NCBI RefSeq assembly: GCF_039851975.1
Contig: NZ_CP156660.1
Location: 1,927,035-1,991,034 of the forward strand
Source: Desulfoscipio sp. XC116
GTDB lineage: Bacteria; Bacillota; Desulfotomaculia; Desulfotomaculales; Desulfallaceae
Reading direction: 5' to 3'
DNA length: 64,000 nucleotides
The notes under the pieces were generated by a model. It searched no databases, was not told the DNA's origin, and worked only from the letters and a program-made list of their open reading frames with translations. Shown piece by piece: positions 2,119 through 27,724 of this stretch. A program made the position numbers and the translations under genes. Position 1 is the first letter of the stretch. Every line of letters begins with the position of its first letter.

Positions 2119-2160
2119 CGTTTTTCCCCCTTATGCTGTCATTTACCGTTAAGTTGTTGT

Positions 2161-2811: not shown

Positions 2812-2841
2812 ATTTAACCTCACTGTTAAATTATTACTAAC

Positions 2842-2865
2842 ATTGTATACAATTTTGCATACAAT
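2842..2865. promoter_or_regulatory. Candidate GntR/FadR-type operator
   Basis: An imperfect palindrome with half sites ATTGTATAC and GCATACAAT separated by AATTTT. FCD-type GntR regulators commonly bind TNGTATACNA-like palindromes. The site lies 31-54 nt upstream of the gntR start, where it could overlap the promoter. Binding is inferred. Confidence 0.5.
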
Positions 2866-2878
2866 GGCAATAAAAAAC

Positions 2879-2922
2879 AAAAAAAAAGACAAGGCCCTTC
2901 GGTTATTTAAAGGTCTTGTCTT
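2879..2922 (-). terminator. Rho-independent terminator, orphan
   Basis: On the minus strand AAGACAAGACC pairs with GGCCTTGTCTT and is followed by a run of nine T. No recognisable minus-strand gene lies upstream of it before the divergent AraC gene, so it either insulates the gntR promoter or ends a short untranslated transcript starting near 2.95-3.05 kb. Confidence 0.6.
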
Positions 2923-3113
2923 ACGAGTTGAAGCAACGACTTCCAACACTTGGTACCGACTAAACGGCACTGCATAATCATTTTGGCAGCTCTTATTTTA
3001 ACCAAGCGTTATTTTTAGGCAAATAAAACAGAGCAAACCCTTAAAATTTCGCAAGTTTGGAAAAGTTTTTTTATTTTCCCGCCTGCTATACTGTAGATGT
3101 GAGGTGGCAAAAC

Positions 3114-4164: not shown

Positions 4165-5376
4165 TTAGAAGTCAAAATGTGGTGTATAATCGGTGGTGTA
4201 GAACCAGTTAATGATCGTGTTGTCGGTGGTCAGCTGATAATCGGCCGCGCCCACCCCGGGGACCTTGCAGGTGGGTGTATATACATCGTCCATATACATC
4301 CAGCCGGAAAGGTAGCCGCCGTCAAATTCGGCCAGTCCGTTCAGCTCGGCAAGATAAGCTCCGCCGTAGGAAATGGTGGTAGGATCACTGAAGTATCCTT
4401 CTTCCTCCGCCCAATCCGCAAAGTCGACCATGATTTTCATCACCGTGGTGCCGGGATCCACATAAAACCCATCAGTGTCAAAGTATGCTTCCGTCGCTGC
4501 GTTGATCTCTTCGCACTGGTCAATGATTTCGCCGGTGTAATATGTTTCGTCATTCTCTATTTCGTCAAGGACAATGTCGTAGTATACTTTAATTTGTTCC
4601 GGCAGCCTGGCGCTGACATGATAGTCCCGGCTGGCGCCGCCGTTGGTGACCGTCATGACATTCAGGTTTTGATCCAGGTCAAAGGTATAGCTGCCGCTCA
4701 CGCACCCGGATGCCGAAGCGCCACCGGCCAGGGTCATGGTGCCGGGAACGGCTGAGAGGTTGGTGCCCGAAGGCAGTGGTTTATTGCCTCTGACGTAGTA
4801 CTTGATAATCGTCCACTTAAAGTCTTCCTGCTCATACCAGGGATTGCCTGCAAATCTGTCGGTACTGGTCCCCTCAACGGCCGCGTCAACACTCGGGCTG
4901 GTGGTGAACACCACGTTTTCAACCTTTAACGGGTCCGAGGGTGAAACGCTGACGGTAGTGCCGTTGGGAAGGTCGGCCGCCAGGACATATTCCGTGTCGC
5001 CGATTTTAACGTCATAGGCTTCGTTCAGCAGGTTCACATTGCTGGCGGTGCGGGTCGTGGTGCCGTCTCCGATGAAGGTCAGGGTGTTTGAGCTGACCGT
5101 GGTGCTCGCGCTCTTCAGATTGATCACAATGTTAGCACCCTGCAAGTCATATTCCGTGTCCAAATCGGCCCGGATAAACTTGGTGGGGCCGTTGTCGTCT
5201 TCTTGGAATACGGCGGCTTTACCGCCGATACTAATAGACATGACTTCAGAGATCGTAACCGGCGTGCTGGATTCCGGCTTGTCCACGTCGGCGAACGCCG
5301 GAACGGCGCCCAGAGACAGCGCAAAAACAAGCGCCAGGAAAATAACTAGACTTCTTTTTGTAATGGTCTTTCTCAC
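4165..5376 (-). CDS. Secreted protein with C-terminal DUF4430 (transcobalamin-like) domain
   Basis: 403 residues from the GTG at 5374-5376, which has an AAGGGGG site 7 nt upstream; a TTG nine codons earlier lacks one. Residues 1-30 are a signal peptide (basic RKTITKR, hydrophobic core, cleavage after VPAFA). The middle is Thr/Ser/Gly-rich beta-type sequence I do not recognise. The last ~110 residues (DPGTTVMKIMVDFADWAEEE ... YLAELNGLAEFDGGYLSGWM ... IINWFYTTDYT) match DUF4430, the domain shared with the C-terminal part of eukaryotic transcobalamin and intrinsic factor. The single-gene transcript starts at a cobalamin riboswitch with its own terminator, so it should be made only when B12 is scarce. 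The likely role is extracellular corrinoid binding; no lipobox, sortase motif or TM tail is visible, so it is probably released or held by partners. Confidence 0.78.
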   Translation of the reverse strand: MRKTITKRSLVIFLALVFALSLGAVPAFADVDKPESSTPVTISEVMSISIGGKAAVFQEDDNGPTKFIRADLDTEYDLQGANIVINLKSASTTVSSNTLTFIGDGTTTRTASNVNLLNEAYDVKIGDTEYVLAADLPNGTTVSVSPSDPLKVENVVFTTSPSVDAAVEGTSTDRFAGNPWYEQEDFKWTIIKYYVRGNKPLPSGTNLSAVPGTMTLAGGASASGCVSGSYTFDLDQNLNVMTVTNGGASRDYHVSARLPEQIKVYYDIVLDEIENDETYYTGEIIDQCEEINAATEAYFDTDGFYVDPGTTVMKIMVDFADWAEEEGYFSDPTTISYGGAYLAELNGLAEFDGGYLSGWMYMDDVYTPTCKVPGVGAADYQLTTDNTIINWFYTTDYTPHFDF

Positions 5377-5517
5377 TTCAAAACCCCCTTTTATTTTACT
5401 CAACTAATTGCATTGGCCTGCCGCGAAAACCGACCCCGCTTAATTTTCCGGTTTCCGGAAACCACCTCCTTTGCGGGCCCTTGCGGGTTATTCCCGGTTT
5501 ATCTTTTGAGCTTCAAC

Positions 5518-5546
5518 AAAAAACTCCTCGGCATTAAGCCAAGGAG
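5518..5546 (-). terminator. Riboswitch expression-platform terminator
   Basis: On the minus strand CTCCTTGGC and GCCGAGGAG flank a TTAAT loop, followed by six T. It lies about 55 nt after the cobalamin aptamer and 140 nt before the DUF4430 start, as expected for a transcription-terminating riboswitch. Confidence 0.8.
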
Positions 5547-5599
5547 AAAATAAATTTTATTTCCTAACCTACTCAATGTCCCGTGAGTACAACGGCAGT

Positions 5600-5765
5600 C
5601 TTACCAAGCAGGTCTCCTGACTCGGGCTCAACGCCGGCCTGAACCTTCCCGGGTAATCCCCAGTGGCATCTTTTCAGGCAAGCTCCCCCTTACAGTGGCG
5701 GGTCCGCGCCGGATTTGCACCGGCTTCCCTTTTCAGTTTTGCATAATGCAAAACCACTTAGTAAG
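5600..5765 (-). promoter_or_regulatory. Cobalamin (B12) riboswitch aptamer 1
   Basis: Read on the minus strand the element contains AAAAGGGAAGCCGGTGCAAA, the core CCGCCACTGTAAGGGGGA, a GCCACTGGGGATTACCCGGG hairpin and the B12 box AGTCAGGAGACCTGCTT at 5607-5622, in the order of the cobalamin riboswitch consensus. It precedes the DUF4430 gene. The core closely resembles the copy at 19.3-19.5 kb, suggesting duplication of a regulatory cassette inside this locus. Confidence 0.93.
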
Positions 5766-5806
5766 CAGATATTCAATTATCATATTTCCTGTCTTTTCCT
5801 GCTTTT

Positions 5807-5835
5807 ACAGTAACATGTTTTTTTTCTGTTTTCAA
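5807..5835 (-). promoter_or_regulatory. Sigma-A promoter of riboswitch 1 transcript
   Basis: On the minus strand TTGAAA (5830-5835), a 17-nt spacer and TACTGT (5807-5812). Transcription would start near 5800, some 40 nt before the aptamer core. Confidence 0.55.
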
Positions 5836-5923
5836 CAATATTCGTTCGTTATATTTCTGTCTTTTTTGCTAATATTCCTATTTTTATTTCATGTGCCGTG
5901 TTTTGTCTGTTTTCTTCGCACAA

Positions 5924-8767
5924 TCATTGGTTCCGCTTATACCTTCTGTATCTTCCCGCTCCGCCGGACAGGATAACTGCCAGGACGACGGCTCCTATGG
6001 CAACGGTCAGCCAGGGGTTGGTGGCTACGGTCTTTTTAACAATTTCAAATACGGCCGTTTCTTTTTGATCTGTTCTTTGATCCGCTGCTTGATCTGTTTG
6101 GGGAGTTTCCTTGTCGCTGCTTTCCTTTTCGTTAGCCGGAGTTATGTCACCGGCGGCGGTATTTTGAGCAGCGTTTACCGGTGCGGGGGGGGCGGCTCCC
6201 AGATTGGCGCTCTGCCCGGGCTCAACGCCCGGCGCGGGTGCGGCGGAACCATCCGGCCAGACGCCGCCGGAAGCGGTTCTGACCCCGGTTTGGACCTTGT
6301 CGGCAAAGAGCGAGCCCCAGTCGTTGCCGTCGTCGGGGTGCAGGACCACCAGGTCTTCGCGGCAGTCCGAATAGCCGTAATAGATATGTTTATTGTCAAT
6401 CCCCCGGATAAAATCAATTTGCCGGCTTGCAAAGGGGTTGTATTTTTCCGAGATGCCGGTTTCCTGCCCCAGCAGGTAACCCTGCAGTTCCACCGTCCGC
6501 AGACCGGTGCAGCCGCTGAAATCATACATACCCAAAGCCTGTAGGCTGGCGGGAAGTTTAACGGATTCCAACGCGGTGCAGCCGGCAAAGGTGTAGCCGC
6601 CGGTTCTGGTGATCCCTTCGGCCAAAGTGACGTCCTTAAGATTCACGCAGTCCCTGAACAAGCCCGTGCCAAGGGTGTAGTCCAGGCTGCCGGACTTGAT
6701 AGTGGCGGACTCCAGGTCCCGGCAATCGTTAAAGGCGTAATCCTGGAGCCTGGTTACGCTTTTGGGGACGACGATCTCCCGGATCAGGGTGGAGGAAAAG
6801 GCGTTTCTGCCGATATTCTCAAGCCCTTCCGCCAGGGTGACTTCCCTGACGCCGATGCAGCCTGAAAAGGCGGCGGCGCCGACGGTTTGCACGGTTTCAG
6901 GAATCGTGACGGCAATAATATCCGGATTATCGGCAAAGGCGCTATTTTTAATCGCCGTCACCTTGTACCCGGCAATGGTTTCCGGTATTTGCAGCCAATG
7001 CATCCGCTCTTTGCCGATGCCGTCCCGGAAGCCGTTGATAATGGCCGTCCCGTCTCTCTGCACGCTCCAGTCAAACACCGTCTCCGGACCGGTTACGTTG
7101 ACCTCCGCCGTTCCGGTGTAAACCCTTCCGTTATAAGTCAGGGAGGCGGTAATGTCGCTGACCCCCGCTTGAAGCGCGGTCACCCTGCCGGTATCGTCCA
7201 CGGCGGCCAGACTGTTGTCGGAAGAACTCCAGACAACCGGTCCGGCGTCCGCCGGCAGCCCGGCTTTGACCACGGAGACGGGCTCCGATACGCTGCCGGC
7301 TTCCAGATGGGCAAAGGACTCGGGGGGGTGGAGGATCAGCCGGGGATGGTCCTTTTCCGCCTCTTCGTCCAGGGTATAGTAGAACACCTTGTAGGTAAAG
7401 GAGATCCGGGTAGTGGCCCCCGAGCCGTCCGCAAAATCCGCAAAAGAGTCCCCCCAGCCCCGGGCGCCCCGGAGCGCGTAGATTTTCAGGTTCTCCGCCA
7501 CGGCCAGGGGCAAGCCGCTGAAGGAGTCGTTTTCCCTGGTCCAGACGTCATTGGAAACACTGGTGCCGAAGCCGTTGCCTCTGAGCGGCATATTGCCTTC
7601 AAAATAGACGGCTTGCAGCCCGGCGCAGCCCGCAAACACGGCGCTGCCCAAATTTTGCAGAGTATAGGGAAAGGTTATACTCTCCAGGCTGGCACAGCCG
7701 CCGAAGCTGCCTTTGATTTGCCGCAATTGGGCCGGCAACGTGATTTGCGTGAAGGCGCAGTTGCTGAAGGCGGCGTCTTCAATTACGGTAATTCCGTCCC
7801 CCAGGGTAATATCCCGCAAGCGCGCGCAATCCCGGAAGGTCCCGTAGGGCAGTGTCTCCAAACGGGTGGCGGACAAATCTATTTTTTCCAGCCCGGAGCC
7901 CTGGAAAGTTTGCCGGCCCAGCGCGGCCAAGCTGTGCGGCAGAGCGATTGTTTTCAGGCTTGCCGTGTACGCAAAAGCCTCGTCCCCGATGCTTTCCAGC
8001 CCTTCGTTCAATACCGTCTCCTGCAGCCCGGTACAGCCGCTGAAAGCCTGCTCGCCGATGGTTTTTACGCCGGGGCCCAGGGCAACGAACCGGAGCCCGC
8101 TGTTGCAAAAAGCCCCGGCGCCGATTGCCGTCACCGTCTCCGGCACTGTAAAGCTATCTTTGTCAACGGCGCCCGCCGCAACCAGGGCGGTCATATCTTT
8201 GCTGTAGATACTCCCGTCCCGGGCGGTGTAATGGGGGTTTGCCGCGGCCACGGTAAAGCGGAGGCTGGGGCAGTTGGTGAAAATGTTGGGGTTAAAGCTT
8301 GCCAGCCCGGCCGGGATATTGATCTCCCGCAGGGAGGAACAGTTATAAAAAGCGTTTTCGCCTATCGCCGTCAGCCCTTCGGGCAGTTCAATCCGGGTCA
8401 GCGCCGCGCAGTTGGCAAACCCGGAGCCGCCGATGGATTGCAAGGTGCCCGGCAGACTGACTTCCGTCAGTTTGCCGCAAGAGCCGAAGGCTCTGGTTGC
8501 GATGTTGGTCACCGGTTTGTCTTCGATATGGTCCGGAATATCGATTCGCGCCGCCGCCGGGTCACACCCGACAATGGTGACGCCGGCCGCCCCCACCTTA
8601 TATTGCAGCCGGGCCAAGCCGCCGCCGTCTTCGGCCCGGGCGGGCACAGGCGGGGAAAAGGGACCCGGAAAGGCGGCGAGGAAGACTACTGCCCAAAAAA
8701 CCGGCAGTAATCTCACCGCAAAGGCTAATCTTTTTTCTTTTTTCGCTATGTTTGCCTTGCCCCGCAT
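5924..8767 (-). CDS. BspA-type leucine-rich-repeat surface protein with C-terminal membrane tail
   Basis: 947 residues. A signal sequence spans roughly residues 12-46 (LLPVFWAVVFLAAFPG, ending near ARAED). Residues about 50-430 and 570-800 carry LRR_5/BspA repeats of the form IxxxAFxxCxxLxxIxLPxxLxxI. Between them, about 490-560, is a bacterial Ig-like Big_2 domain (VVWSSSDNSLAAVDDTGRVT). A Pro/Ala/Glu/Asp-rich spacer is followed by a C-terminal TM helix with a basic end (NPWLTVAIGAVVLAVILSGG then RYRRYKRNQ) very like the tail of the giant protein encoded just upstream. Its ATG abuts the TAA of that gene (GGGGGA site 8 nt before), so the two are co-transcribed under cobalamin riboswitch 2. 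BspA repeats usually bind proteins or glycans; here a receptor or scaffold role in corrinoid capture is inferred. Confidence 0.85.
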   Translation of the reverse strand: MRGKANIAKKEKRLAFAVRLLPVFWAVVFLAAFPGPFSPPVPARAEDGGGLARLQYKVGAAGVTIVGCDPAAARIDIPDHIEDKPVTNIATRAFGSCGKLTEVSLPGTLQSIGGSGFANCAALTRIELPEGLTAIGENAFYNCSSLREINIPAGLASFNPNIFTNCPSLRFTVAAANPHYTARDGSIYSKDMTALVAAGAVDKDSFTVPETVTAIGAGAFCNSGLRFVALGPGVKTIGEQAFSGCTGLQETVLNEGLESIGDEAFAYTASLKTIALPHSLAALGRQTFQGSGLEKIDLSATRLETLPYGTFRDCARLRDITLGDGITVIEDAAFSNCAFTQITLPAQLRQIKGSFGGCASLESITFPYTLQNLGSAVFAGCAGLQAVYFEGNMPLRGNGFGTSVSNDVWTRENDSFSGLPLAVAENLKIYALRGARGWGDSFADFADGSGATTRISFTYKVFYYTLDEEAEKDHPRLILHPPESFAHLEAGSVSEPVSVVKAGLPADAGPVVWSSSDNSLAAVDDTGRVTALQAGVSDITASLTYNGRVYTGTAEVNVTGPETVFDWSVQRDGTAIINGFRDGIGKERMHWLQIPETIAGYKVTAIKNSAFADNPDIIAVTIPETVQTVGAAAFSGCIGVREVTLAEGLENIGRNAFSSTLIREIVVPKSVTRLQDYAFNDCRDLESATIKSGSLDYTLGTGLFRDCVNLKDVTLAEGITRTGGYTFAGCTALESVKLPASLQALGMYDFSGCTGLRTVELQGYLLGQETGISEKYNPFASRQIDFIRGIDNKHIYYGYSDCREDLVVLHPDDGNDWGSLFADKVQTGVRTASGGVWPDGSAAPAPGVEPGQSANLGAAPPAPVNAAQNTAAGDITPANEKESSDKETPQTDQAADQRTDQKETAVFEIVKKTVATNPWLTVAIGAVVLAVILSGGAGRYRRYKRNQ

Positions 8768-11700
8768 TTACATATCCCCCATATGCCTCTTGTAACGGCG
8801 GTAGCCCGCGGTACCCATAATGCCCAGAAGCACGGCGGACAGCAGTGCCATGGTCAGCGGATTATTGCGCACCGCGTCTTTGACGATTTCAAATACGGTT
8901 AATTGCGCGTCCTCGTCTTCTTTCTTTATTTCCTCTTCTCCCCCGCCGGCACTCGGAGATCCGCCCGCCGGCGAGCCGCCTTCGTCAATTTCCTGTTCCG
9001 CCGTATTTGCTGCCACGGTGGTTTCATCGGCCTGCCGGGCGATGACCAGGGAATCCGTGATATCCGCGCCGTCCGTTGCCGGCGCTCCCGACTGGCTCGA
9101 TACGGTCTCATCCGAGTCGCCGCTCTGGCCGGCGCTGCTTCCGTCGCCTATGTCACCGCCTTCGCCTGTGCCCGTACCGTCATCTATGCCGGTGCCGTCG
9201 CCTATGCCGGTGCCGTCGCCTATGCCGTCTCCATCACCGTCGCCTATGCCGTCGCTATCGCCATCGCCCGTGCCGTCGCCGTCACCGTCGCCTATGCCGC
9301 CCTTGTCCGGATCTTCGGTGTCATCGTCATCGTCGTCATCATCATCGTTGTTGTCCTCTTCTTCTTTCTCCTCTTCCGTAGCGAATACAGCTTTAACGAC
9401 AGCGTCGCCGCTAAGTTCGAATTGCCCGGCGTCGGTGATATCTTCTTCTTCTCCATTCTGGTGGACAACCATAATTTTTTCAAGCGTATAGGTATACGTT
9501 ACCCCGTCTTTGGTTTCAGAAGGAGGTGGGGTTGCCGATACTTTAACCGTTGACCCCGCCGCGGCGTAAAGCGGTGTTACAGCGTCGCCCTGATTGTATT
9601 TCTCCCGGTCCTGGTTGGTGAATTTAACCGTACTTAATATATTAGTTAAGATAAACGGTGGTGTTATTATTCGGTGATAAGTGGGCGAGCCCAACTCCGG
9701 ATAACCCTTCTCATCGTTCTGGGTCCACGTTTTCGGCGCTTCCGCCGTGCCTTCGTTGCCGGTGTCCAGGCGCCAGGCGACTTCGCCGCTGGCGAATTGG
9801 CCGGGTTCCATACGTTTGGAGGAGGCTGAGTCCGATTTATCGTCATTGGGGTCCGTCAGTTCGCCATCCTCGGCGGCGCTATGGAGGCCCGCTCCCTCCG
9901 GGTTTTCGCCGGTATCCGCCGTCCGGAGACCATAATAGTTGTTAGCGTTGTCTTCGTTTATCCGATTGCTTATGCCGTAGACCTCATCGCCGGTGATGGA
10001 TTCTCCGTACCAGTAGCAGTTGATAATTTTTGCGTATTGAGTTGTACTATTTATCAAGCCATTGGCTGCGCTCGTGCCGCTGATATTGCCGGTACTGTAG
10101 CAATTGAGCAAAGCAATTCCATCATCTACGTTTAAGTTATTGTTGCAATCTCCGATCAGCCCCGAGGCCTGTCCGCCGACGGCCGCAACATCCCCCGTGC
10201 TGAAGCATTTTGTAGATGTCCCTTGCAAAAAACCGAATAATCCGCCGACTCGATCTTTGCCGGTGATATTACCAATGTTATATGACTCTTCTGAATCAGT
10301 AGCTACCTCTCCACCCAAACCGCCGACATTTCTGGCCTCCTCCGCTGTGATATCGCCGGTATTGCGGCTCTTATTCCGAATCTTGATTTTATTAGCTGAC
10401 GTACTATAGCCAACCAAGCCGCCGATATTGGTGATATTGCTTCCGGTTCCTGCCGTAACCGTAATATTGCCCGCGTTTTCACATTCGGTAATTTCTAACA
10501 CGCCTTTGCTGTTACCGACAATCCCGCCGACCCCTTGAACATTATCTGTCGAGCTTGGCGTCAGTATTAAATGGGCGTTATTCATGCATTTCTCAAGATA
10601 CATATGGTTATTACCATATGGTATACCGCCGACAATTCCGCCCACGCCCTCAATATGTTTATCTGCGCCCGCCTTTACCCGGATCTGGCCGTTGTTTACA
10701 CAATCCTGAATTTTAATATACATAATCTTAGGTGAATGATTTCCCACAATGCCCCCGACATTCTTGCTTCCCCAAACAGTGCCGTCGTTGGTGCAGTCAA
10801 GCACATTGCTTTCGTTATAGCCCACAATACCGCCGATATTTTCCTTGTCGTTCTCGCTGAAGTCCACGTGGGAGACTACGCCGGAAATGGTTCCGTAATT
10901 GTACCGGGCCGCCGCGCCTGTGTTGTCTGCGGTGACGTCAAGGCTGCCGGTGAGATTGAGGTTCTTGAGCTCCGCATTTTCGCCGACGTAACCGAACAGG
11001 GGGGCGCCGTTCAGGGCAACGGTATACCCATTGCCTTCAAAAGCCCCCTGAAATGCCGAAGCGGACGTGGGACCGATGACCGTCCAAGCGTCGGGAAGCT
11101 CCAGATCGCCGCCGAGAGCAAAGAACTTATCTGCATAGCTTTCGCCGGCCGCCACTCTGGCCCGGAGTTCTTCCAGAACATTGGCGCTGCCGATGACAAA
11201 CGGGTTGTCTGCGGAATTGCCGCCGGCCAAATTATTTGTTGCCGTCCAATGGGCATACAGGGTCAGGTCGTCGGTGACAGCGGTGTCAAAATCCCAGGCG
11301 GTCCCGCCGCTCCTTTGCGTAAACCACCCGTCAAAGGCATAGGAGACGATCTCGCCGCCGTCGCGGGACGGGTCGGCGGGCTCGGCAACGGTGCCGCCGG
11401 TATTGATGATCTGCTCATAGGTGCTGTCCCCTTCCATTTTTCCGCCGTTGGCGTCAAAGGTGACGATCACTTGGCCCTCTTCCTTCCAATGGGCGTAAAG
11501 CGTAAGCGGTCCGGTGACGGATAGCGTAAAGTTATATTTTTCCCCGCCGCCGGCCTTGGTGTACCAGCCTATAAACACCATGTTCTCACGGACCGGAGGA
11601 GCGGGTGGCGGAGCCACCGTCTCTCCCGCGTCTACGGTTGTCTCATACGTATTTGCGGGCGGGGAGGCATCAAAATGGCCGCCGTTGGCGTTAAAGATGA

Positions 11701-14700: not shown

Positions 14701-17700
14701 TGCTGGTTGCGCTGCCTGCTATACCGCCGATATAAACGGGTCCCGTCACCGCGCCTTCATTGGCGCAGCTGCTGAGCGCCCCCGCCGCTTTGCCGGTAAT
14801 GCCGCCGGCATAACCGGCAGCGGCGGCAACGGCGCCGACATTGGCGCAGCTGTTGAGCGCGCCCGTGGCGTTGCCGGCGATGCCGCCGGCGTTGCTGCCG
14901 TTCCCGCTAACTATGCCGTTATTGACGGAGCTGTTGATGGCGCCCGTGGCGTTGCCGGCGATGCCGCCGGTGTTGTCCCCGTTTCCGTTAACTGTGCCGT
15001 TATTGACGCAGTTGTTAATGGCGCCCGTGGCGCTGCCGGCAATGCCGCCGGTGCTGCCGCCGCCGGTTACTGTTGCCGGCTGGCCGGCGCTGCCGAATGT
15101 GCAATTGGTTAAGGCTGTGCCGGAGGCGCTGCCGGCGACGCCGCCCACGGAATCCCCATCGCTGTAGACGCTCCCAATCACCACAAGGTCTTTGATCTCG
15201 CCGCCGCTGGTATGGCCGAACAGGCCCTGGCCGCCATTGGGGCTGTCCACATAGAGGCCGCTGATGGTATGGTTGTTCCCGGCAAATGTGCCTTTAAAGG
15301 GTTTATCCCCGGTACCGATGGCTGTCCAAATTCCGCTTAAGGATATATTGCCGGCCAGTTCCACGGTCTTGCCTGCAAAGGAGTCTTCCAGACCGCCGGC
15401 TGTGCCGTTGACCAGGGCCGCCAGGTATTTCAGGTCTTCTGCCGTGGAGAGTATGAATTTACCTTCGGCGTTCCCCGCGCCGCCGTTGTACCAGACTGAG
15501 CTTCCCGGACCGCCCGGGCCCGGCGCCAGAAATTCATAAGTTAAATTGACGTCTCTGTTGTTTAGCGCCGCCGTATAGACGCCTTCGCTTTCCGACACTT
15601 CCCGGGCCGGCCGGAAGGAGGGGGCATATGCGTTGTAGCCCGGGTTCTTTTGTACGTTTAAGGTGACCGGCAGTCCGGCCGGCAGATAGATGTACGTGGC
15701 CCCGCCGGTGCCGCCGGAAAACCGGCAGTGGGCGTACCTTGTGTCGCCGGCGGGCAGGTCCGTGAAGGTTACCGAGCCTGCGCTGCAGGGCGTGGCCGGC
15801 TGGGTTAAGGTAAGTTTATAAATTGTACCGGTTCCGAAGACAGGGTAGTTTTCGCCCTGGGTCCAGACATTGCTGCGGGCTCCTTCACCGCCGTCCAGGA
15901 ACCAGGCCGCTTCGCCGTATAGGAAGGTGTCCTCTGTTCGGCCGTAGGTGCTGTTTTCATCGGCCAAATAGAAGCTGTTGGTAACAACGGGCGAGCCGCC
16001 GCCGTATAAGACGGTGTTCCTCTGAATGGGGTGATAGGAGAAGCAGCCGGTGATTTTTGTGTTTTCATCGGCGGCCAGGCCGAGGATGCCGCCCACCGCG
16101 GTATCGCCCGTCATAACGGCAAGATTATAGCAGTTGCTGACGATGCCGGAAGAATGCCCGGCAATGCCGCCGGCGTTGATTTCTCCCGCCACCGCCGCGT
16201 CGCTGTCGTTGAGGCAGATTTCCACCAGGGCGCTGGAATCGCCTGTAATGCCGCCTGTGTTTGTGGAGCCGGTTACTGCTGCGTGGTTGGTGTTGTTCCG
16301 CAGGGTATCCGCGGCATAGCCGGCGATGCCGCCGGTGTTGGTTAAGCCGGTTACCGCCGCGTGGTTGGTGTTGTTTTGCAGGGTATCCGCGGCATAGCCG
16401 GCGATACCGCCGACGTTCGCGGTTCCTGTTACGGTGGCCTCTGCGCTGCTGCTGCATTCTTTGACGAGATACGCGCCTGTCCCGGCAAAATAGCCCACAA
16501 TGCCGCCGGTATTTTCAGCGCCGGAAACAGCGCCGGCGTTCAGGCAATTTTCTATACTGCGGGTTGTGCAGCCGGCGATGCCGCCCGTATCGGAAGACCC
16601 TGCGGCGCCGGTGACAATGCCGGTGTTGGAGTTGTCTGAGAGCGTACCTTTCGCATAGCCGACGATGCCGCCGGTATATTGCCCGCCGCCGGTGACGCTC
16701 CCCTTGTTTTCATTTCCGCTGCCGGCTCCGCTGGCGCTTCCGGCGATGCCGGCGATGCCGCCCACATCATCGCCCGCCCCTTCGACAGTCCCCTTGTTCA
16801 CGCTGTCGTTGACAGCGCCACCGGCGTTGCCGACGATGCCGCCCACATCATCGCCCGTCCCGGTGACGGTTCCCTCATTACTATTACTATTGCCGGTTAC
16901 TGTCGCGGAGCTTGAGCTGTAACCGGCGATCCCGCCCACGTTGCTGCTTCCTGCCACACTTCCCGCATTCGTGGCTGCTGTAACAGAAGTACCGGAAAAG
17001 AGATATCCGGCAATCCCGCCCGTGTTATTGCCTGCTCCTCGCACCGTACCGGTGTTGACGGCATTGGTGACAGTACTGTATCTTATATAACCGGCTATCC
17101 CGCCGATATAGGTGCTTGAATCTACTCCGAAAAGGTTTCCGCTGTTGGTGCAATTATCAAATGTGCCGTTGGCGCTGGAAGTTCCGTATGCGTAACCTAC
17201 GATACCGCCGATATAGCGCCCGCTGCCGCAAACCTGGCCGTTAACGGTCAGGTTCTTGATTGCGGCTCCGCTGGTACGGCCGAATAATCCCTGGTAGTCC
17301 TGGCTTACCGGGTTCAATGCGCTGCCCAGTTCGTAATCAATGGTATTATTTTGGCCGTCAAAGGTTCCCTTAAACTGGTTGGCGCTGCCGGCTGAATAAT
17401 CGCCGATTGGCGTCCAACTGCCGGTAACCGTGATATTCCCCTGCAGATTAACCGTCTCGCCGGCAAAGTCATCCCGGAGCGGATTCCCGCTCCCGTCCGT
17501 GGCCGTGCCGTTGACTAATTGGGCCAGGCCCAGGAGGTCGGCTTCCGTCTCAATGGTATAGGGGCCGGTTTGCCCAACATACCAGTCCACGCTGCTTGCG
17601 GCCGGCTGTGAAAATTTATACTCCAGGTTAATATTGCCGCCGTTAATCTTTACTTCATATTTTCCGTCCTTCTCGGTAACCGCTCCGGCCGGTGTAAAGA

Positions 17701-19045
17701 TCAATTGGTACTCGTCATACCCGGCGGCGCGCCGGACATTTAGTTCCAGGGAGGTGCCGTCCGGCACATACGTGTACTTTTGTCCATCCGGCCCGTCAAA
17801 CAGTTTATAGTCGCTGTCCGCCGGCAAATCGGCAAAGGTTACCGTCCCCTGGTCGTAGGGCGCTGCCGGCTGACCCAGAAGCAGCCTGTAATAGGAGTCC
17901 TTGCCGTCGTCGCTCAGAACCGGGTAATCCGCGCCCTGGGTCCAAATATTTCTATGTTCTTCCGTGCCTCCGTCCAGCAGGCAGGCGACCTCGCCGTATT
18001 GGAAGGCTTCCGCCGTCCGGCCATATGCGCTGTTTTCCGCGGCCAGAAAATAGCTGTTGGTTATAGCCGCCCCGCCGCCGCACAAGGGGGTGGCGTCGCC
18101 GGAGACGTAAGAGAAGCAGTACTGAAGCTTGGCGTTCGCCTCGGCTTGCCCGATTATACTGCCTGCGGCGCTTGCGCCTTCGACCGGTCCGAAATTGCTG
18201 CAGTTTAGAACACTATTGCCGGTTTTCTTGCCAACGATGCCGCCGACATTGGCCTGTCCTTCAATAGTCCCGGAGTTGCTGCTTTTTTCAATATTTCCCC
18301 CTGTTTGGCCGACGATGCCGCCGACATTATCCGTACCCGTCACAGCCGCGTTATTTACGCAACCGGTGAGGTTTCCCCCCCCAACATAGCCCGCTATCCC
18401 GCCGACATAGCTGCCGCCGTATACCGTCCCCGCCACTGTCAGGTTTTTAATTTGCGCGTATGCACAGCCGAACAGCCCCTGATTATCGCCGGCGGGCGCG
18501 TCGGCGCTGCCGATGGTCAACCCGCTGATCGTTTTATTATTTCCGTCAAAGTTCCCTCTGAAGTTGATCGTGTCCTTTATGCCGATGGGCGTCCATGCTT
18601 CCCCCGACACATCAATCGTAGCGCCGTCGGGATCCAGGGTAATGGTCTTACCGGAGAAGTTCACGGGGTCAAGCTTTTTCCCTGCCCCGTCAACCGCCGT
18701 GCCGTTGACCAGTTCGGCCAGGTAGCGCAGCTCTCCCGCGGTGGCTATGGTAAAAGCCGCGTTCCCGGGATTGTTAAGATACCAAGCTCCGTAGACCGCC
18801 GTTGCCGTGGAAAGACCCTCAATCCCTGCCAGGCCTCCTCCGTATACGCTGTCGCCCACGGAGTCGCCTCCTTCATCTCCGTATACGTCGCCGCCCACGG
18901 TGTCGCCGCCGTCTCCGTAGACGCTGCCGTTCACACTGCCGCCGACGGCAAAACCATGCGCATACACCGGCATAATGATCTGTGGCAGCAGCAGGTTGAT
19001 ACACAGGATAATGCTTAAGATAAACTTTAACCTTCGCCTTTTCAT
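8768..19045 (-). CDS. Giant GLUG-repeat surface protein (3425 aa) with C-terminal membrane tail
   Basis: Signal peptide at residues 1-30 (FILSIILCINLLLPQIIMPV, cleavage near VYAHG). Five large blocks follow, starting near residues 85, 490, 1180, 1870 and 2600. Each opens with a segment like FTIATAGELRYLAELVNGTA and FxGxFDGxNxTISGL, continues with many GLUG-motif units (VGGIAGYxxGxIxxCxNxGxVxG), and closes with YGEVAxxLDGG...WTQGxxYPVL. The first three blocks are joined by a repeated beta linker. Two InlB/Flg_new repeats (FDANGG...GWF...LYAHW) sit near 2450-2600. Near 3215-3315 lies an acidic Asp run and Gly-Asp tract, possibly Ca2+-binding, then a TM helix and YRRYKRHMGDM. GLUG arrays are predicted beta-solenoid fibres. 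The ATG has a GAGGAG site 12 nt away and lies about 170 nt after a riboswitch terminator. The gene is GC-richer than its neighbours. Function unknown; a B12-repressed surface fibre is inferred. Confidence 0.88.
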   Translation of the reverse strand: MKRRRLKFILSIILCINLLLPQIIMPVYAHGFAVGGSVNGSVYGDGGDTVGGDVYGDEGGDSVGDSVYGGGLAGIEGLSTATAVYGAWYLNNPGNAAFTIATAGELRYLAELVNGTAVDGAGKKLDPVNFSGKTITLDPDGATIDVSGEAWTPIGIKDTINFRGNFDGNNKTISGLTIGSADAPAGDNQGLFGCAYAQIKNLTVAGTVYGGSYVGGIAGYVGGGNLTGCVNNAAVTGTDNVGGIVGQTGGNIEKSSNSGTIEGQANVGGIVGKKTGNSVLNCSNFGPVEGASAAGSIIGQAEANAKLQYCFSYVSGDATPLCGGGAAITNSYFLAAENSAYGRTAEAFQYGEVACLLDGGTEEHRNIWTQGADYPVLSDDGKDSYYRLLLGQPAAPYDQGTVTFADLPADSDYKLFDGPDGQKYTYVPDGTSLELNVRRAAGYDEYQLIFTPAGAVTEKDGKYEVKINGGNINLEYKFSQPAASSVDWYVGQTGPYTIETEADLLGLAQLVNGTATDGSGNPLRDDFAGETVNLQGNITVTGSWTPIGDYSAGSANQFKGTFDGQNNTIDYELGSALNPVSQDYQGLFGRTSGAAIKNLTVNGQVCGSGRYIGGIVGYAYGTSSANGTFDNCTNSGNLFGVDSSTYIGGIAGYIRYSTVTNAVNTGTVRGAGNNTGGIAGYLFSGTSVTAATNAGSVAGSSNVGGIAGYSSSSATVTGNSNSNEGTVTGTGDDVGGIVGNAGGAVNDSVNKGTVEGAGDDVGGIAGIAGSASGAGSGNENKGSVTGGGQYTGGIVGYAKGTLSDNSNTGIVTGAAGSSDTGGIAGCTTRSIENCLNAGAVSGAENTGGIVGYFAGTGAYLVKECSSSAEATVTGTANVGGIAGYAADTLQNNTNHAAVTGLTNTGGIAGYAADTLRNNTNHAAVTGSTNTGGITGDSSALVEICLNDSDAAVAGEINAGGIAGHSSGIVSNCYNLAVMTGDTAVGGILGLAADENTKITGCFSYHPIQRNTVLYGGGSPVVTNSFYLADENSTYGRTEDTFLYGEAAWFLDGGEGARSNVWTQGENYPVFGTGTIYKLTLTQPATPCSAGSVTFTDLPAGDTRYAHCRFSGGTGGATYIYLPAGLPVTLNVQKNPGYNAYAPSFRPAREVSESEGVYTAALNNRDVNLTYEFLAPGPGGPGSSVWYNGGAGNAEGKFILSTAEDLKYLAALVNGTAGGLEDSFAGKTVELAGNISLSGIWTAIGTGDKPFKGTFAGNNHTISGLYVDSPNGGQGLFGHTSGGEIKDLVVIGSVYSDGDSVGGVAGSASGTALTNCTFGSAGQPATVTGGGSTGGIAGSATGAINNCVNNGTVNGNGDNTGGIAGNATGAINSSVNNGIVSGNGSNAGGIAGNATGALNSCANVGAVAAAAGYAGGITGKAAGALSSCANEGAVTGPVYIGGIAGSATSTITDCANRNPGVITGSGITLDQYVGGIAGYTSGAITGCTNAGPVSSNKNYIGGITGYTTSTVSSSDNEGAIDGASYIGGISGGTKGKTEDCANAGYIAGSNQYIGGIIGHSGGQMQNSVNTGTVSCSGTTEEQYVGGIAGSCGKSIIGCTNKGAVTGTQNYVGGIAGKFSSMDSIIITKCGNSEAVVGANYVGGIAGHATEDIQNCYNLGGIAATSGANAGGIAGCAESIIQYSFSYNTEADGLCGPGFFQPLHSYYCAEDSDNPASKNAEAFKYGEVAHLLDAGKSSGDKAWTQGEDYPVLKGADTPGAIYKMTLAEQAGSTTAAGSVRFTPPAAGSPYKIFTDDDGHAYTYLPASTATVSSVVPLDVTFNSGYDECRLIFSPEGIVNITDGEDGSVSYTITMPEAPASDDITLHYSFFAPPPGDIAWHTADPDAAEFTIDTYEELIGLTELVCGKRLDETPIAGGAVSFASKTIHLDANIAITSAFVPVGTPDNPFSGVFDGHDYAVSGLALDTIDDYQGLFGYTSGGEIKNLTVTGNIKSSGDYIGGLIGYAKNTAVTACRMANDADDSRVKGKNNVGGLVGYADGAIFTDCANAAAVGGSEYIGGIAGCAQETAITGCTSNAAVSGSEYIGGIAGCAQETAITGCTNNAAVSGSSSSSSVGGVGGIAGELTGSGNEITGCANTGPVSDIGTGSGVSTGGIAGETSANSKISDCRNQGTVSTTKSRAGGIAGDLSGTITRCGNTGAVTAHSQVGGIAGVNGGAISHSYNLGQITVFNTDSFTFAGGISGENSTDRAAVRYCYSLGSCSGDSLRMGAITGGMTDEDDTTNNNYNYANNTNCYYLSKGYTETPVDSAYAVAKDKKAFIGGEVAYLLDGGAESLRKGLWSQYRRTTGEDTEGYPVPADEANPVVYKATVRQAAYGSLALSPDYAYFNAGDPVSVTAAPESGYMLREVRVRAGHYEVDCARTGNVFTFAMPDDDIEISAEFVAGQAGTTHPVIFNANGGHFDASPPANTYETTVDAGETVAPPPAPPVRENMVFIGWYTKAGGGEKYNFTLSVTGPLTLYAHWKEEGQVIVTFDANGGKMEGDSTYEQIINTGGTVAEPADPSRDGGEIVSYAFDGWFTQRSGGTAWDFDTAVTDDLTLYAHWTATNNLAGGNSADNPFVIGSANVLEELRARVAAGESYADKFFALGGDLELPDAWTVIGPTSASAFQGAFEGNGYTVALNGAPLFGYVGENAELKNLNLTGSLDVTADNTGAAARYNYGTISGVVSHVDFSENDKENIGGIVGYNESNVLDCTNDGTVWGSKNVGGIVGNHSPKIMYIKIQDCVNNGQIRVKAGADKHIEGVGGIVGGIPYGNNHMYLEKCMNNAHLILTPSSTDNVQGVGGIVGNSKGVLEITECENAGNITVTAGTGSNITNIGGLVGYSTSANKIKIRNKSRNTGDITAEEARNVGGLGGEVATDSEESYNIGNITGKDRVGGLFGFLQGTSTKCFSTGDVAAVGGQASGLIGDCNNNLNVDDGIALLNCYSTGNISGTSAANGLINSTTQYAKIINCYWYGESITGDEVYGISNRINEDNANNYYGLRTADTGENPEGAGLHSAAEDGELTDPNDDKSDSASSKRMEPGQFASGEVAWRLDTGNEGTAEAPKTWTQNDEKGYPELGSPTYHRIITPPFILTNILSTVKFTNQDREKYNQGDAVTPLYAAAGSTVKVSATPPPSETKDGVTYTYTLEKIMVVHQNGEEEDITDAGQFELSGDAVVKAVFATEEEKEEEDNNDDDDDDDDDTEDPDKGGIGDGDGDGTGDGDSDGIGDGDGDGIGDGTGIGDGTGIDDGTGTGEGGDIGDGSSAGQSGDSDETVSSQSGAPATDGADITDSLVIARQADETTVAANTAEQEIDEGGSPAGGSPSAGGGEEEIKKEDEDAQLTVFEIVKDAVRNNPLTMALLSAVLLGIMGTAGYRRYKRHMGDM
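9100..9400. repeat. Low-complexity Gly-Asp tract within the giant gene
   Basis: On the minus strand this DNA encodes a run of nine Asp, then alternating Gly-Asp/Ile/Thr units (GDGDGDGTGDGDSDGIGDGD and on). The DNA is a degenerate 6-12 bp repeat (GGCATAGGCGACGGC-like). It separates the folded extracellular part from the C-terminal TM tail and probably spans or contacts the cell wall; length variation between strains is likely. Confidence 0.75.
12730..12891. repeat. Near-perfect 81-bp tandem duplication in the giant gene
   Basis: Two 81-bp copies (12730-12810 and 12811-12891) differ at only a few bases and each encode a 27-residue GLUG unit (EYIGGIAGCAQETAITGCT...). Such identity against the diverged neighbouring units indicates a recent duplication. 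Confidence 0.8.
16271..16426. repeat. 78-bp tandem duplication in the giant gene
   Basis: Two adjacent 78-bp units encode almost identical 26-residue GLUG repeats (GGIAGYAADTL[QR]NNTNHAAV). This is a second recent expansion of the array, separate from the one near 12.8 kb. Confidence 0.7.
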
Positions 19046-19217
19046 TCTCTTTCTTTTCTCCTCTTTGATGATTTATTTGCCCCATGGCTTGTCCGGTTAA
19101 CGCGCAACTTTCTTTTTCTTTGGGGATCAAGTTCGCTTTTAAAAAAAACATCGTTCAAAAAAGAGCAATACCTTCGTGTTCGGTCAGCAGCAGCCAAAAT
19201 ATGTAATCAGTTCCATT

Positions 19218-19245
19218 AAAAAAAGCCCCTCCGGTTAAGGGGGCC
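19218..19245 (-). terminator. Riboswitch expression-platform terminator
   Basis: On the minus strand GCCCC and GGGGC enclose a ten-base loop and are followed by seven T. It sits between aptamer 2 and the giant gene, about 170 nt before the start codon. Confidence 0.75.
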
Positions 19246-19299
19246 ATAGCAATCTGTGCATTTCCATACCTCCTCATTTTCCGTGAGTTATTTCGGCAG

Positions 19300-19472
19300 G
19301 CTTCAATAAGCAGGTCTCCTGGCTTGGGTTCACCGCCGGCCTGAACCTTCCCGGGTAATCAAAACCCCAGTGGCATCTTTTCAGGCGGACTCTCCCTCAC
19401 AGTGGCGGAACCGCGCCGGATTTGCACCGGCTTCCCTTTTCAATCTTGCTTTACGCAAAAATCACTTATTGA
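19300..19472 (-). promoter_or_regulatory. Cobalamin (B12) riboswitch aptamer 2
   Basis: The minus strand shows AAAAGGGAAGCCGGTGCAAA, CCGCCACTGTGAGGGAGA, GCCACTGGGGTTTTGATTAC and the B12 box AGCCAGGAGACCTGCTT. It heads the transcript for the giant GLUG protein and the LRR protein. A TATAAT at 19479-19484 just upstream is a plausible -10 box, without a good -35. Confidence 0.93.
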
Positions 19473-19553
19473 AAAATAATTATACAATTTTTAATATTTT
19501 TAGCTTATCATTGTGGGAATGTTTTTCAATACATAAACAATAAGTTAATGAAA

Positions 19554-19865
19554 TTACTTGGAAATGATGTACATCTTGCCGGTTTTGGAATCCTGATACA
19601 CCATGCCTTTGGATTCAAAGCCTTTCGCAAAGGTTCCGTCTTTGACCGCCTCTTCCAGTCCATTAACCTCCTTCAGATCTTCCTGTGAGATTACTTCCAT
19701 TCCCTTGGTTAAATCTATACCCCAGTAAAGGACGATTGACAGCATCAGCCCGCAGGCAAATACCAGCATGGCATCCACCAGATTGACGATGCCGTCCAGG
19801 GGATTGATCTCTTCTCTGTGCAATCGTGATCTGCGCCTGCCGCTTAAGGCGCTATTTCTGATCAT
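19554..19865 (-). CDS. DUF2149 protein, ExbD/TolR-like small membrane subunit
   Basis: 103 residues from the ATG at 19863-19865; the GGAGG 10 nt before lies inside the end of the ExbB-like gene, and the two genes overlap by 14 nt, which points to translational coupling. A basic N-terminus (GRRRSRLHREE) is followed by NPLDGIVNLVDAMLVFACGL, one TM helix (about 25-47), and a ~55-residue outside domain ending in MVYQDSKTGKMYIISK. The DG/NLVDAMLVFA signature fits DUF2149; the topology (short cytoplasmic N-terminus, one helix with an Asp, small outer domain) is that of ExbD/TolR/MotB. From memory, DUF2149 genes often neighbour MotA/TolQ/ExbB genes and cobalamin-linked genes in anaerobes. Probably the stator partner of the ExbB-like protein. 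Confidence 0.8.
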   Translation of the reverse strand: MIRNSALSGRRRSRLHREEINPLDGIVNLVDAMLVFACGLMLSIVLYWGIDLTKGMEVISQEDLKEVNGLEEAVKDGTFAKGFESKGMVYQDSKTGKMYIISK

Positions 19866-20487
19866 CCGGCGCCACCTCCTCCAGGACGCACTCCATAACC
19901 AATTCAAAATTGGTCAGGTAATCATCGTACCAGCGCTTGCGGATGTTTGAAATGACATAACTGACGGCGGCGGAGCTGACCCCTGCAATGGCGGTATCAA
20001 ATGCCACGGAGAGGGATGCCGACAAAGTGGCCGTGTCGCCTTCGCCCAGGGCTACGATGCCGGGTCCCAGCGGGATCAAAGTGCCAAGCAGACCGAACAT
20101 GGGTCCCAGCTTGGCCGCCAGGTCCGTGAGTGCCGTTGTCCTTTCGTACTTGTCCTCCTCTGTCGCCAGGAGCCTCTGCGCCATGGCAATTAAAAATGTC
20201 CGGGGCATCGGGCTTGACTCTATCAGCAGGTACAGGGCTTCTTTTTGCCGGCGAATAAGTCCGCTGTTTTCTATAATCTCTCGCAGATGCGCCGGACCAC
20301 CTTTATGAATGTCCTTGATCATGGCAAGGACATCCATTCTTGCCTTGCGTCTTTCGGTAAACAGTTCCATCAGCAGGTCGCCCAGCTGCCATACGGAAAT
20401 TACTATAAGTGAAAGCAGCACAATCAGGCAGGGCACCAAGAGTCCCTGGCCGATCAAGTGCAGAATGTCGCTTAACGAAAAGTTCAT
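19852..20487 (-). CDS. MotA/TolQ/ExbB-family proton-channel protein
   Basis: 211 residues with three predicted TM helices: about 13-35 (LLVPCLIVLLSLIVISVW), 120-145 (LAAKLGPMFGLLGTLIPLGP) and 155-180 (LSVAFDTAIAGVSSAAVSYV). The GLLGT segment and the Thr-rich third helix are the ExbB/TolQ hallmark where protons pass between the ExbB ring and the ExbD helix. A long cytoplasmic loop separates TM1 and TM2, as in ExbB. The ATG has a GGGGAG site 6 nt away. It lies downstream of cobalamin riboswitch 3 and overlaps the DUF2149 gene. In diderms this motor drives TonB-dependent B12 uptake; here, with no TonB or outer-membrane receptor in the window, it may drive a surface-fibre machine. That link is inference; the family call is firm. 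Confidence 0.88.
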   Translation of the reverse strand: MNFSLSDILHLIGQGLLVPCLIVLLSLIVISVWQLGDLLMELFTERRKARMDVLAMIKDIHKGGPAHLREIIENSGLIRRQKEALYLLIESSPMPRTFLIAMAQRLLATEEDKYERTTALTDLAAKLGPMFGLLGTLIPLGPGIVALGEGDTATLSASLSVAFDTAIAGVSSAAVSYVISNIRKRWYDDYLTNFELVMECVLEEVAPDDQK

Positions 20488-20512
20488 TTTGTCTCCCCTC
20501 TAATAGTAAGCC

Positions 20513-20842
20513 TCACAAGTAGTAAGCCTTACAAATCTGCTGCATTTTTAAAAAGAAGGCTGGGAAACCAAACCAGGCCTGTTTTATCATTTTCCCCCGG
20601 GCTTTCTTTAGGTCCCCCGCATTCCATTCAGCCGAAAGCGGGGAATCCGGTATAGCCGTTGTTGCGTCAAAATCATAGGCCCTGGTTCCTTCCGCTTTTC
20701 TGTAACACCCGGCAGAACTGTGCCGGGTATCTCCCTCGGCATCCCTTACAGGATCGATTGCCGGTGTGCCGCCTCTTTTAACCGTGCCGTTTTCCGCCAC
20801 CTTCCTGGTGCTCGCGGTCTCTATTGCGCCCGCAAACGCCAT
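20513..20842 (-). CDS. Hypothetical protein, first gene of the B12-controlled exbB transcript
   Basis: 109 residues; I do not recognise the family. The ATG at 20840-20842 has a CAGGAA site 5 nt upstream and the TGA lies 25 nt before the ExbB-like start, so an operon is plausible. The protein is hydrophilic, Ala/Gly/Asp-rich in the middle and ends with a more hydrophobic KQAWFGFPAFFLKMQQICKA. There is no signal peptide or clear TM helix. The DNA at 20707-20728 is a hairpin (ACCCGGCA, GAACTG, TGCCGGGT). It may be a genuine small protein, the decayed remnant of a larger gene, or untranslated leader; base composition does not settle it. Confidence 0.4.
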   Translation of the reverse strand: MAFAGAIETASTRKVAENGTVKRGGTPAIDPVRDAEGDTRHSSAGCYRKAEGTRAYDFDATTAIPDSPLSAEWNAGDLKKARGKMIKQAWFGFPAFFLKMQQICKAYYL

Positions 20843-20930
20843 TAATTCCTGTTCTTTTCTTTACGGTTTTCCACCCCTCTTTCTGTCTCATCGCCCAAGG
20901 TTGTTCGGGAACTATTTTGTTATATACATG

Positions 20931-20993
20931 AAAAAAACCCCCGCCTTTCACATGAAAGAACAGGGACTCGATTCTACCACAACATTTTCCCTG
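20931..20993 (-). terminator. Terminator and competing antiterminator of riboswitch 3
   Basis: On the minus strand CCCTG-TT-CTTTCA pairs with TGAAAG-G-CGGGG and is followed by seven T (20931-20965). The same CCCTG (20961-20966) can instead pair with CAGGGA at 20988-20993, giving a helix that excludes the terminator. This is a complete on/off expression platform between aptamer 3 and the small-ORF/exbB/DUF2149 genes. Confidence 0.75.
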
Positions 20994-21029
20994 TGCTAAT
21001 TCTTTCCGCGGAAGAATCGTTGCACAACT

Positions 21030-21205
21030 ACTCAGGCAGGTTTCCTGACTTATGGATCAGCATTTTCTTCTTTTATTCATTCCCGCCCGCGTTACCTCGC
21101 AGTGGCTTGTCCTGAAGAAAATTACCCATTTACAGTGGCCGGACCGTCCGGGATTCACACCCGGTTCCCCCGTTTTCGGGCTCTCCGAAACACCGGAATA
21201 GTTAT
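21030..21205 (-). promoter_or_regulatory. Cobalamin (B12) riboswitch aptamer 3
   Basis: The minus strand contains GGGGGAACCGGGTGTGAATC, CGGTCCGGCCACTGTAAATG, AAGCCACTGCGAGGTAACGC and the B12 box AGTCAGGAAACCTGCCTGA (21032-21050), again in consensus order. It is more diverged from aptamers 1 and 2 than they are from each other. A TATAAT at 21264-21269 upstream may be the -10 box. Confidence 0.92.
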
Positions 21206-21515
21206 TTATTTAATTGATTGATTGCCATATTAACGGCAAATGTGTTGTCTTCCAAATCTATTGATTATAATAAATATTAAAGCATTTTCACATTTTTTTG
21301 TAAAATTAGCTATTTGCACTATTATCTTGCTTATTTGCATCTTTTTTATGTTTGTTTTATTTATTTTTATGAAAATCGGGTCTCTTTTTAGGAAATCGGA
21401 GTATCTGTAAAAAAGTTTGTTAAAAATTTTTTACAGAAAAACATTGAGGCTTGAATCCCAGCCCCGGATATTCACTTATATAAACGAAAATATAAAACGA
21501 AGGAGTGAATTTTTC

Positions 21516-27709: not shown

Positions 27710-27724
27710 GTGCAGATGTTATGC

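Follow-up and report, generated by a model that had tools for sequence, protein, structure and literature searches.

A cobalamin-riboswitch regulon joining an ExbB/DUF2149 pair to giant anchored surface proteins in Desulfoscipio: a candidate corrinoid-capture module in a monoderm

The 64,000-nucleotide stretch analysed here (the window; positions 1927035-1991034 of the 4.26-Mb genome of Desulfoscipio sp. XC116, with element coordinates given as window positions) carries a candidate corrinoid-capture system. It is encoded in three minus-strand units, one for an ExbB-like and a DUF2149 protein, one for a giant GLUG-repeat protein and a leucine-rich-repeat (LRR) protein, and one for a secreted DUF4430 protein (Table 1). 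An earlier, sequence-only reading held that each unit is headed by a cobalamin riboswitch and a terminator, and this was borne out by three riboswitch matches of 84-128 bits (Rfam RF00174, cut-off 31.5 bits) and three hairpins. The co-regulation it proposed likewise holds at the level of leader anatomy, from which joint control by B12 is predicted, and its family labels are all backed by Pfam, that of DUF4430 below the cut-off. An open reading frame of 109 aa at 20513-20842 has no family match and is probably not a gene.

Table 1. Features of the three riboswitch-headed units, in window positions
Feature	Position	Strand	Basis
Cobalamin riboswitch 1, leader of exbB-like/DUF2149 unit	21018..21212	-	RF00174 84.2 bits, E 2.8e-19
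Terminator hairpin, leader 1	20931..20974	-	fold -17.9 kcal/mol, z -3.8, then T7
ExbB/HmuU-like proton-channel subunit, 211 aa	19852..20487	-	PF01618 E 3.6e-10; aligned with E. coli ExbB
DUF2149/HmuV-like subunit, 103 aa, ATG at 19865, overlaps exbB; ExbD-like transmembrane motif NLVDAMLVFACG	19554..19865	-	PF09919 E 1.2e-7
Cobalamin riboswitch 2, leader of GLUG/LRR unit	19292..19484	-	RF00174 120.8 bits, E 9.3e-30
Terminator hairpin, leader 2	19226..19242	-	fold -14.9 kcal/mol, z -1.9
Giant GLUG surface protein, 3425 aa, signal peptide, ~40 GLUG-like cores, List_Bact_rpt (Flg_new)	8768..19045	-	PF07581, PF09479
Anchor module of GLUG protein (VFEIVK..V..NP - transmembrane helix - GYRRYKR)	8771..8926	-	C-terminal alignment; one of six genome matches
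LRR_5 (BspA-type) surface protein, 947 aa, with Big_2 domain	5924..8767	-	PF13306 E 4e-98, PF02368
Anchor module of LRR protein (VFEIVKKTVATNP - transmembrane helix - GRYRRYKR)	5927..6082	-	C-terminal alignment; genome profile match
Cobalamin riboswitch 3, leader of DUF4430 unit	5590..5776	-	RF00174 127.6 bits, E 1e-31
Terminator hairpin, leader 3	5524..5546	-	9-bp stem + T6, z -6.1
Secreted DUF4430 protein, 412 aa	4165..5403	-	Pfam; 76% identical paralogue in L022
DUF4430 (transcobalamin beta-domain-like) domain, residues 318-402	4198..4452	-	PF14478 E 7e-4, 20.4 bits

The first unit encodes a pair with the hallmarks of a small membrane motor. The ExbB-like protein scores 40.1 bits against PF01618 (cut-off 22.9) and matches MotA structures at E 1e-5; its transmembrane threonine, T136, is invariant in 39 of 39 homologues, and the glycine and proline motifs are likewise invariant. 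In the DUF2149 protein the membrane aspartate D31, set in NxVDxMLVFACG, is invariant in 36/36, and a profile comparison, weak in that 3 of 100 shuffles did as well, places it in register with Asp25 of ExbD (FIDVMLVLL). The protein has no match to the ExbD family (PF02472), with which it has the membrane aspartate motif alone in common. With its PF01618 and PF09919 genes adjacent, the window pair belongs to the HmuU/HmuV type, described for haem uptake in Bacteroidota. In the papers on that hmu operon, HmuU is called ExbB-like, HmuV is given no family and HmuS has membrane helices at both its N and C termini (PMC13227078, PMC12583661, PMC10434189); the two small proteins are so described as a pair (PMC10434189), and the 2026 description of HmuV (DUF2149) finds no homology to any known family (PMC13227078). 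The window pair gives HmuV/DUF2149 a testable role as the ExbD-like partner.

The host in which this pair is encoded is well supported as a monoderm without a Ton system, because the genome contains no match to the Omp85 outer-membrane insertase and none to conventional ExbD (PF02472); TonB and its receptors were not searched for separately. A genus-mate in the Genome Taxonomy Database (GTDB), Sporotomaculum syntrophicum (locus L188, genome G005; Desulfallaceae, Clostridia), points the same way, and both the monoderm host and the lack of a TonB-type partner had been anticipated by the sequence-only reading.

The second unit supplies the surface proteins, the LRR gene beginning on the base directly after the stop codon of the GLUG gene. 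Both products end alike, in the motif [VI]FEIVK.(A/T)V..N(P), one membrane helix and a basic tail of the RYRRY type. Taken over these two proteins and their paralogues, the module reads [FYW]E[IV]V..-NP, a single membrane helix and RYRRY. A profile of this anchor module found six matches with E <1e-24 in the whole genome and nothing else convincing, and all six lie in three cobalamin-riboswitch clusters, namely the window, a cluster at 592-605 kb (L122/L027) with a GLUG remnant, a second LRR protein and a second giant, GLUG2, and one at 3749 kb. Among the B12-riboswitch regions scanned, the motif combined with a C-terminal helix occurred only in the anchor-bearing proteins and in one multi-span protein. 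The anchor module was found in 0 of 149 genomes of relatives, and so was the window type of ExbB (best identity 50%); because these genomes lack both, the motor and the anchored proteins appear to have arrived together.

The shape of the anchor raises the question of export. Its short motif, helix and basic tail resemble a tripartite sorting signal and recur on otherwise unrelated extracellular parts, as would be expected if ExbB-DUF2149 powered late secretion, wall crossing or release of the C-anchored giants, or their turnover, with B12 setting only the timing. We consider this quite unlikely. No NCBIfam sorting-signal model matched the anchor; the chelatase CobN/HmuS has a membrane helix of its own at the C terminus, in systems under B12 control as well as in haem systems (PMC12583661); and the two riboswitch classes associated with the motor both respond to cofactors, for which export by itself gives no reason.

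Two observations concern the history of the anchored proteins. Similar-looking genes for a CCG iron-sulphur protein and a GntR protein flank both GLUG/LRR clusters (window 931-2970; L122:1515-5079, at 577.5-581 kb), which suggests that the cluster was carried by segmental duplication. L122:16176-16787 encodes a 203-aa remnant whose anchor and that of the GLUG2 giant are identical; it is likely either what is left of a GLUG gene or a donor for recombination.

The kinship of DUF4430 with transcobalamin, which the sequence-only reading had invoked, is supported by fold, on a model of a homologue. As judged from alignments, the weak DUF4430 match in the 412-aa protein is genuine: the protein aligns with paralogues and with a homologue from Emergencia (L125) that scores 7e-21, to whose domain the window's domain is ~30% identical. 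A search of the Protein Data Bank (PDB) with the DUF4430 profile gave partial and spurious matches to PrfA, and transcobalamin-2 only at E 0.33, so kinship was judged by fold. The L125 domain, modelled from six related rows (pLDDT 60), was compared by VIA-align with Foldseek candidates, and places 1-14 were all entries for haptocorrin, intrinsic factor and transcobalamin (Z 8.3-7.1, 78-84 residues, root-mean-square deviation 2.4-3.2). The next place went to a Ruminococcus protein, putatively metal-binding (6.8), and ubiquitin-like folds followed at 6.0 and below. A Z near 8 is only moderate, though the block at the top of this ranking is one functional family. The alpha6-alpha6 toroid has no match in the window's 412-aa protein.

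The three units belong to a larger regulon, with 19 cobalamin riboswitches genome-wide. Genes expected under such control, resembling cobT, cobU/cobQ, cbiMNQO and those for CbiZ and BtuCD (read from translations), stand behind some of them, and several others, missed by the sequence-only reading, also head giant surface, DUF4430 or SLH proteins. Among these are another GLUG giant, 3008 aa long (L027), a List_Bact_rpt giant of 2723 aa (L030), and the 76% identical paralogue of the 412-aa protein, which adjoins an RHS protein (L022). Riboswitch-headed DUF4430 proteins that either bear SLH domains or adjoin an energy-coupling factor (ECF) transporter set and an alpha-toroid protein occur at L036, L025, L033 and L023. 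At L036 (G000:C1:3562000-3581500), 14044-17805, a cobalamin riboswitch precedes an SLH protein of 1253 aa that carries two DUF4430 domains and a weak alpha-toroid match below the cut-off, followed by a DUF4430 protein, a CbiQ-like protein, a double ATP-binding cassette (ABC) ATPase, an ECF S component and a toroid protein; this series makes up a transcobalamin-like set of the S-layer, equipped with an ECF transporter. The importers, a BtuCD type and the ECF set, sit elsewhere in the genome behind B12 riboswitches, and CbiMNQO-like genes under a B12 riboswitch lie ~9 kb outside the window. The N terminus of the RHS-repeat protein at L022:3828-8159 (1443 aa, behind a cobalamin riboswitch) resembles the window's 412-aa secreted protein. 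A riboswitch of another class, for S-adenosylmethionine (RF00162, 88.8 bits), lies at window 27596-27709 (+), ahead of a gene at 27721.

Relatives of the ExbB-like protein were sought in 84,980 species, with at least 580 confirmed, of which the best 80 were kept for comparison of loci. The closest among the matches listed are from Desulfosporosinus SRJS8 (80% identity), Bacilliculturomica massiliensis (62%) and Emergencia timonensis (60%). In all three a cobalamin riboswitch lies 380-560 bp before ExbB, followed by DUF2149 and then by a giant homologous to the window's GLUG protein (40% over 1807 aa in Desulfosporosinus, 28% over 1920 aa in Bacilliculturomica, 28% over 790 aa in the third of the trio), and where the locus reaches the C termini of these giants they fit the anchor. 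Behind cobalamin riboswitches, the Emergencia locus (L125) also encodes a weakly matching alpha-toroid protein and two DUF4430 proteins (7e-21, 8e-5); all of the set noted in the sequence-only reading except the LRR protein is thus found again within a single locus from another family. At L136 and L140 a DUF4430 domain is encoded directly upstream of ExbB. Secreted C-anchored proteins are enriched within 1.5 kb of ExbB (28/141 versus 4/294 in the named loci, p 3e-11), by a criterion strict enough to miss many weaker helices. Clostridium ljungdahlii (L131), a tractable member of the clade, has ExbB, two DUF2149 proteins and an anchored protein of 1218 aa. The combination of motor, giants and B12 riboswitches is not due to chance, and the co-occurrence in other genomes on which the sequence-only reading had staked its proposal is found in Desulfosporosinus, Emergencia and Bacilliculturomica.

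These neighbourhoods also bear on whether the surface proteins are simply adhesins. LRR_5, GLUG, List_Bact_rpt and Big_2 are typical adhesin domains, the RHS protein too stands behind a B12 riboswitch, and the LRR protein partially matches, via its repeats, the adhesin HupY and the gliding protein Gli349; on this account B12-starved cells would attach through GLUG, LRR and RHS adhesins to corrinoid producers or particles, the motor moving or retracting them as in gliding. That explanation is unlikely in view of the company that the genes keep. DUF4430, CbiZ-like, BtuCD-like, ECF and CbiMNQO-like genes share the regulon, DUF4430 recurs in the Emergencia ExbB locus and in genes touching ExbB at L136 and L140, and in relatives the motor is coupled with CobN or with ABC genes of FecCD-like appearance.

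The CobN association is seen in distant Bacillota relatives (34-41% identity), in an operon of the order cobalamin riboswitch, DUF2162, ExbB, DUF2149, CobN, which is a B12-controlled counterpart of HmuSTUV. Such operons stand at L110:6295-13225, L112, L111, L113 and other loci of the distant clade, the riboswitch sometimes in tandem. Their CobN, for which corrinoids or cobalt may be the substrate, has a terminal membrane helix preceded by an AYE motif. The window anchor was compared with this tail as a possible homologue, and because the similarity is at the level of the helix only (3 and 13 of 200 shuffles), a common origin is not claimed.

Cargo other than a complete corrinoid, either cobalt or another tetrapyrrole such as haem or a corrin precursor, is suggested by the nearest characterised relatives, which act in haem uptake (hmu operon; PMC10434189, PMC13227078), by the CobN-linked relatives, which could handle cobalt, and by the CbiMNQO-like genes near the window. 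This is the least likely of the alternatives considered, since CobN/HmuS (PF02514) has no match in the host genome and DUF4430 is predicted, from the modelled homologue, to match carriers of whole cobalamin.

The motor also serves loci of a different character. A second ExbB group (44-50% identity), frequent in Pelotomaculum, Syntrophomonas, Sporotomaculum and Desulfoscipio, has ahead of ExbB a gene for a Big_2/Fn3-type protein whose C terminus consists of VFEM..., a helix and GxxRRYxEY; the profile of this anchor resembles that of the window (hhalign P 9e-6, 1 of 200 block shuffles). Neighbouring genes carry SLH, Shr-like HID and Oxidored_molyb domains. Many of these operons have riboswitches for the molybdenum/tungsten (Mo/W) cofactor (RF01055; Rfam matches at L188, L170, L150, L159 and L151), and no cobalamin riboswitch was seen near them. 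When a model built from ten of these was run on the 80 loci, it gave 34 matches, of which 33 are on the ExbB strand and ten are the training sequences themselves; a further 17 matches came from the other loci, on the ExbB strand where compared. Genomes of the second group have up to 31 such riboswitches. Copies such as those at L188:2063-2179 and 12393-12512 and at L128:9761-9892, and those in genomes G002-G006, G085 and G109, head operons for SLH surface proteins next to ExbB-DUF2149, and some of these proteins carry Oxidored_molyb domains. Locus L128, in the window's own ExbB clade, has an RF01055 riboswitch 240 bp before ExbB. The ExbB tree places the window within a clade of 15 rows (support 99/96), five of them linked to B12 and two to the molybdenum cofactor, so the class of switch changed within close kin.

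Many ExbB loci have neither riboswitch, and some lie beside genes for a FecCD-like ABC permease and a binding protein (read from translations). Loci of a Mogibacterium-like kind (L175, L176, L182, L184, L187, L200, L201, L203) have ExbB-DUF2149 beside FecCD/BtuF-like ABC genes; they also carry a C-anchored protein of ~450 aa, and no cobalamin riboswitch was found there.

TonB-ExbB-ExbD together with BtuB is the B12 import system of diderms. It resembles the window in having a subunit of the proton-channel family and a single-helix subunit with a membrane aspartate, regulated with B12 genes, but the window set lacks ExbD, its genome lacks Omp85, and its partners are anchored by the C terminus. 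The likeness to HmuYRSTUV lies in adjacent genes for a MotA/TolQ/ExbB protein (HmuU) and DUF2149 (HmuV) and in a large extracytoplasmic partner with a C-terminal helix, in that case HmuS; HmuYRSTUV is a diderm system with the TonB receptor HmuR, the haemophore HmuY, the chelatase HmuS, HmuT and control by iron and haem, whereas the window has B12 riboswitches and giant GLUG/LRR partners, and its genome gave no match to CobN or to an outer-membrane insertase. BtuG of Bacteroides also captures B12 at the surface and is encoded in B12-transport loci, but it is an outer-membrane lipoprotein working with the B12 transport machinery, and no domain in common with the window was seen (PMC6143338). The streptococcal Shr/Shp/SiaABC and HupY proteins form a monoderm surface relay for tetrapyrroles in which LRR proteins take part in haem binding, but with NEAT domains or LPXTG anchors, no ExbB-type motor, and control by haem and MtsR (PMC6593403). 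Transcobalamin, intrinsic factor and haptocorrin have a beta domain to which DUF4430 is probably akin, judging from the modelled homologue, and the regulon at L036, like the Emergencia locus L125, joins an alpha toroid to DUF4430; the window protein itself is without the toroid and has an N-terminal half of no assigned family, and the bacterial DUF4430 versions, unlike the vertebrate carriers, are tied to S-layer domains or to the motor locus.

The interpretation that we favour, at a probability of about 0.5, is that the window encodes a B12-repressed, energised corrinoid-capture module at the surface of a monoderm cell. When B12 is low, the three leaders would stop terminating. The ExbB-like and DUF2149 proteins, by family and conserved residues, would form a small HmuU/HmuV-type motor in the single membrane, presumably driven by protons, whose partners, in place of TonB, would be very large surface proteins that a common C-terminal module keeps in the membrane and that would be coupled to the motor. 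The secreted DUF4430 protein, to judge from the modelled fold of its homologue, may bind corrinoids or hand them over. Movement or resetting of the anchored proteins by the motor would then release bound corrinoid through the wall to importers of the BtuCD and ECF types.

Several points weigh against this interpretation. No importer gene lies in the window cluster. The DUF4430 score is below the Pfam cut-off of 23.8 bits, and an AlphaFold2 model of the whole 412-aa protein (3 alignment rows) was unusable at pLDDT 29. The likeness of DUF2149 to ExbD lies in one motif, with an hhalign score that 3 of 100 shuffles reached. The link of the motor to B12 is not exclusive, because the motor occurs behind Mo/W riboswitches as well and, where there is no riboswitch, next to FecCD-like ABC genes. 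We know of no GLUG or LRR_5 protein that binds corrinoids, and what the motor would push against in a cell without an outer membrane is unclear. In its favour, LRR proteins can bind tetrapyrroles, as HupY binds haem (PMC6593403). Of the corrinoid capture machine that the sequence-only reading had proposed, co-regulation and co-occurrence stand; specificity of the motor for corrinoids does not, its relatives having Mo/W riboswitches or none, and the importers are encoded elsewhere in the genome.

Since relatives use the same motor for another cofactor programme, the motor can be viewed as a general module, its cargo set by the riboswitch and the surface proteins. It is possible, though we put this at less than even odds, that ExbB with DUF2149 is a general cofactor-scavenging motor of monoderms acting on C-terminally docked surface proteins, each lineage having its own programme through a matching riboswitch, with corrinoids as cargo in the host and a Mo/W pterin cofactor in Sporotomaculum, Pelotomaculum and Syntrophomonas.

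The system is made of known parts, and its motor pair falls within an established subunit family, but no monoderm system of this composition was found described in the open-access literature, as far as the sources on DUF4430 with cobalamin and on DUF2149 were available, nor was any such system found there for DUF2162 or for molybdenum-cofactor RNA with S-layer proteins. The need for energised capture of large cofactors is generally attributed to bacteria with an outer membrane. In Bacillota, a conserved motor of the ExbB type, wired to B12 and Mo/W-cofactor riboswitches and accompanied by giant anchored surface proteins, would extend the principle to monoderms, and, if the general role is correct, would amount to a new principle, TonB-like energised uptake without an outer membrane. 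It would also explain hundreds of unannotated loci among the ExbB relatives, including those of the gut bacteria Emergencia, Mogibacterium and Eggerthellaceae.

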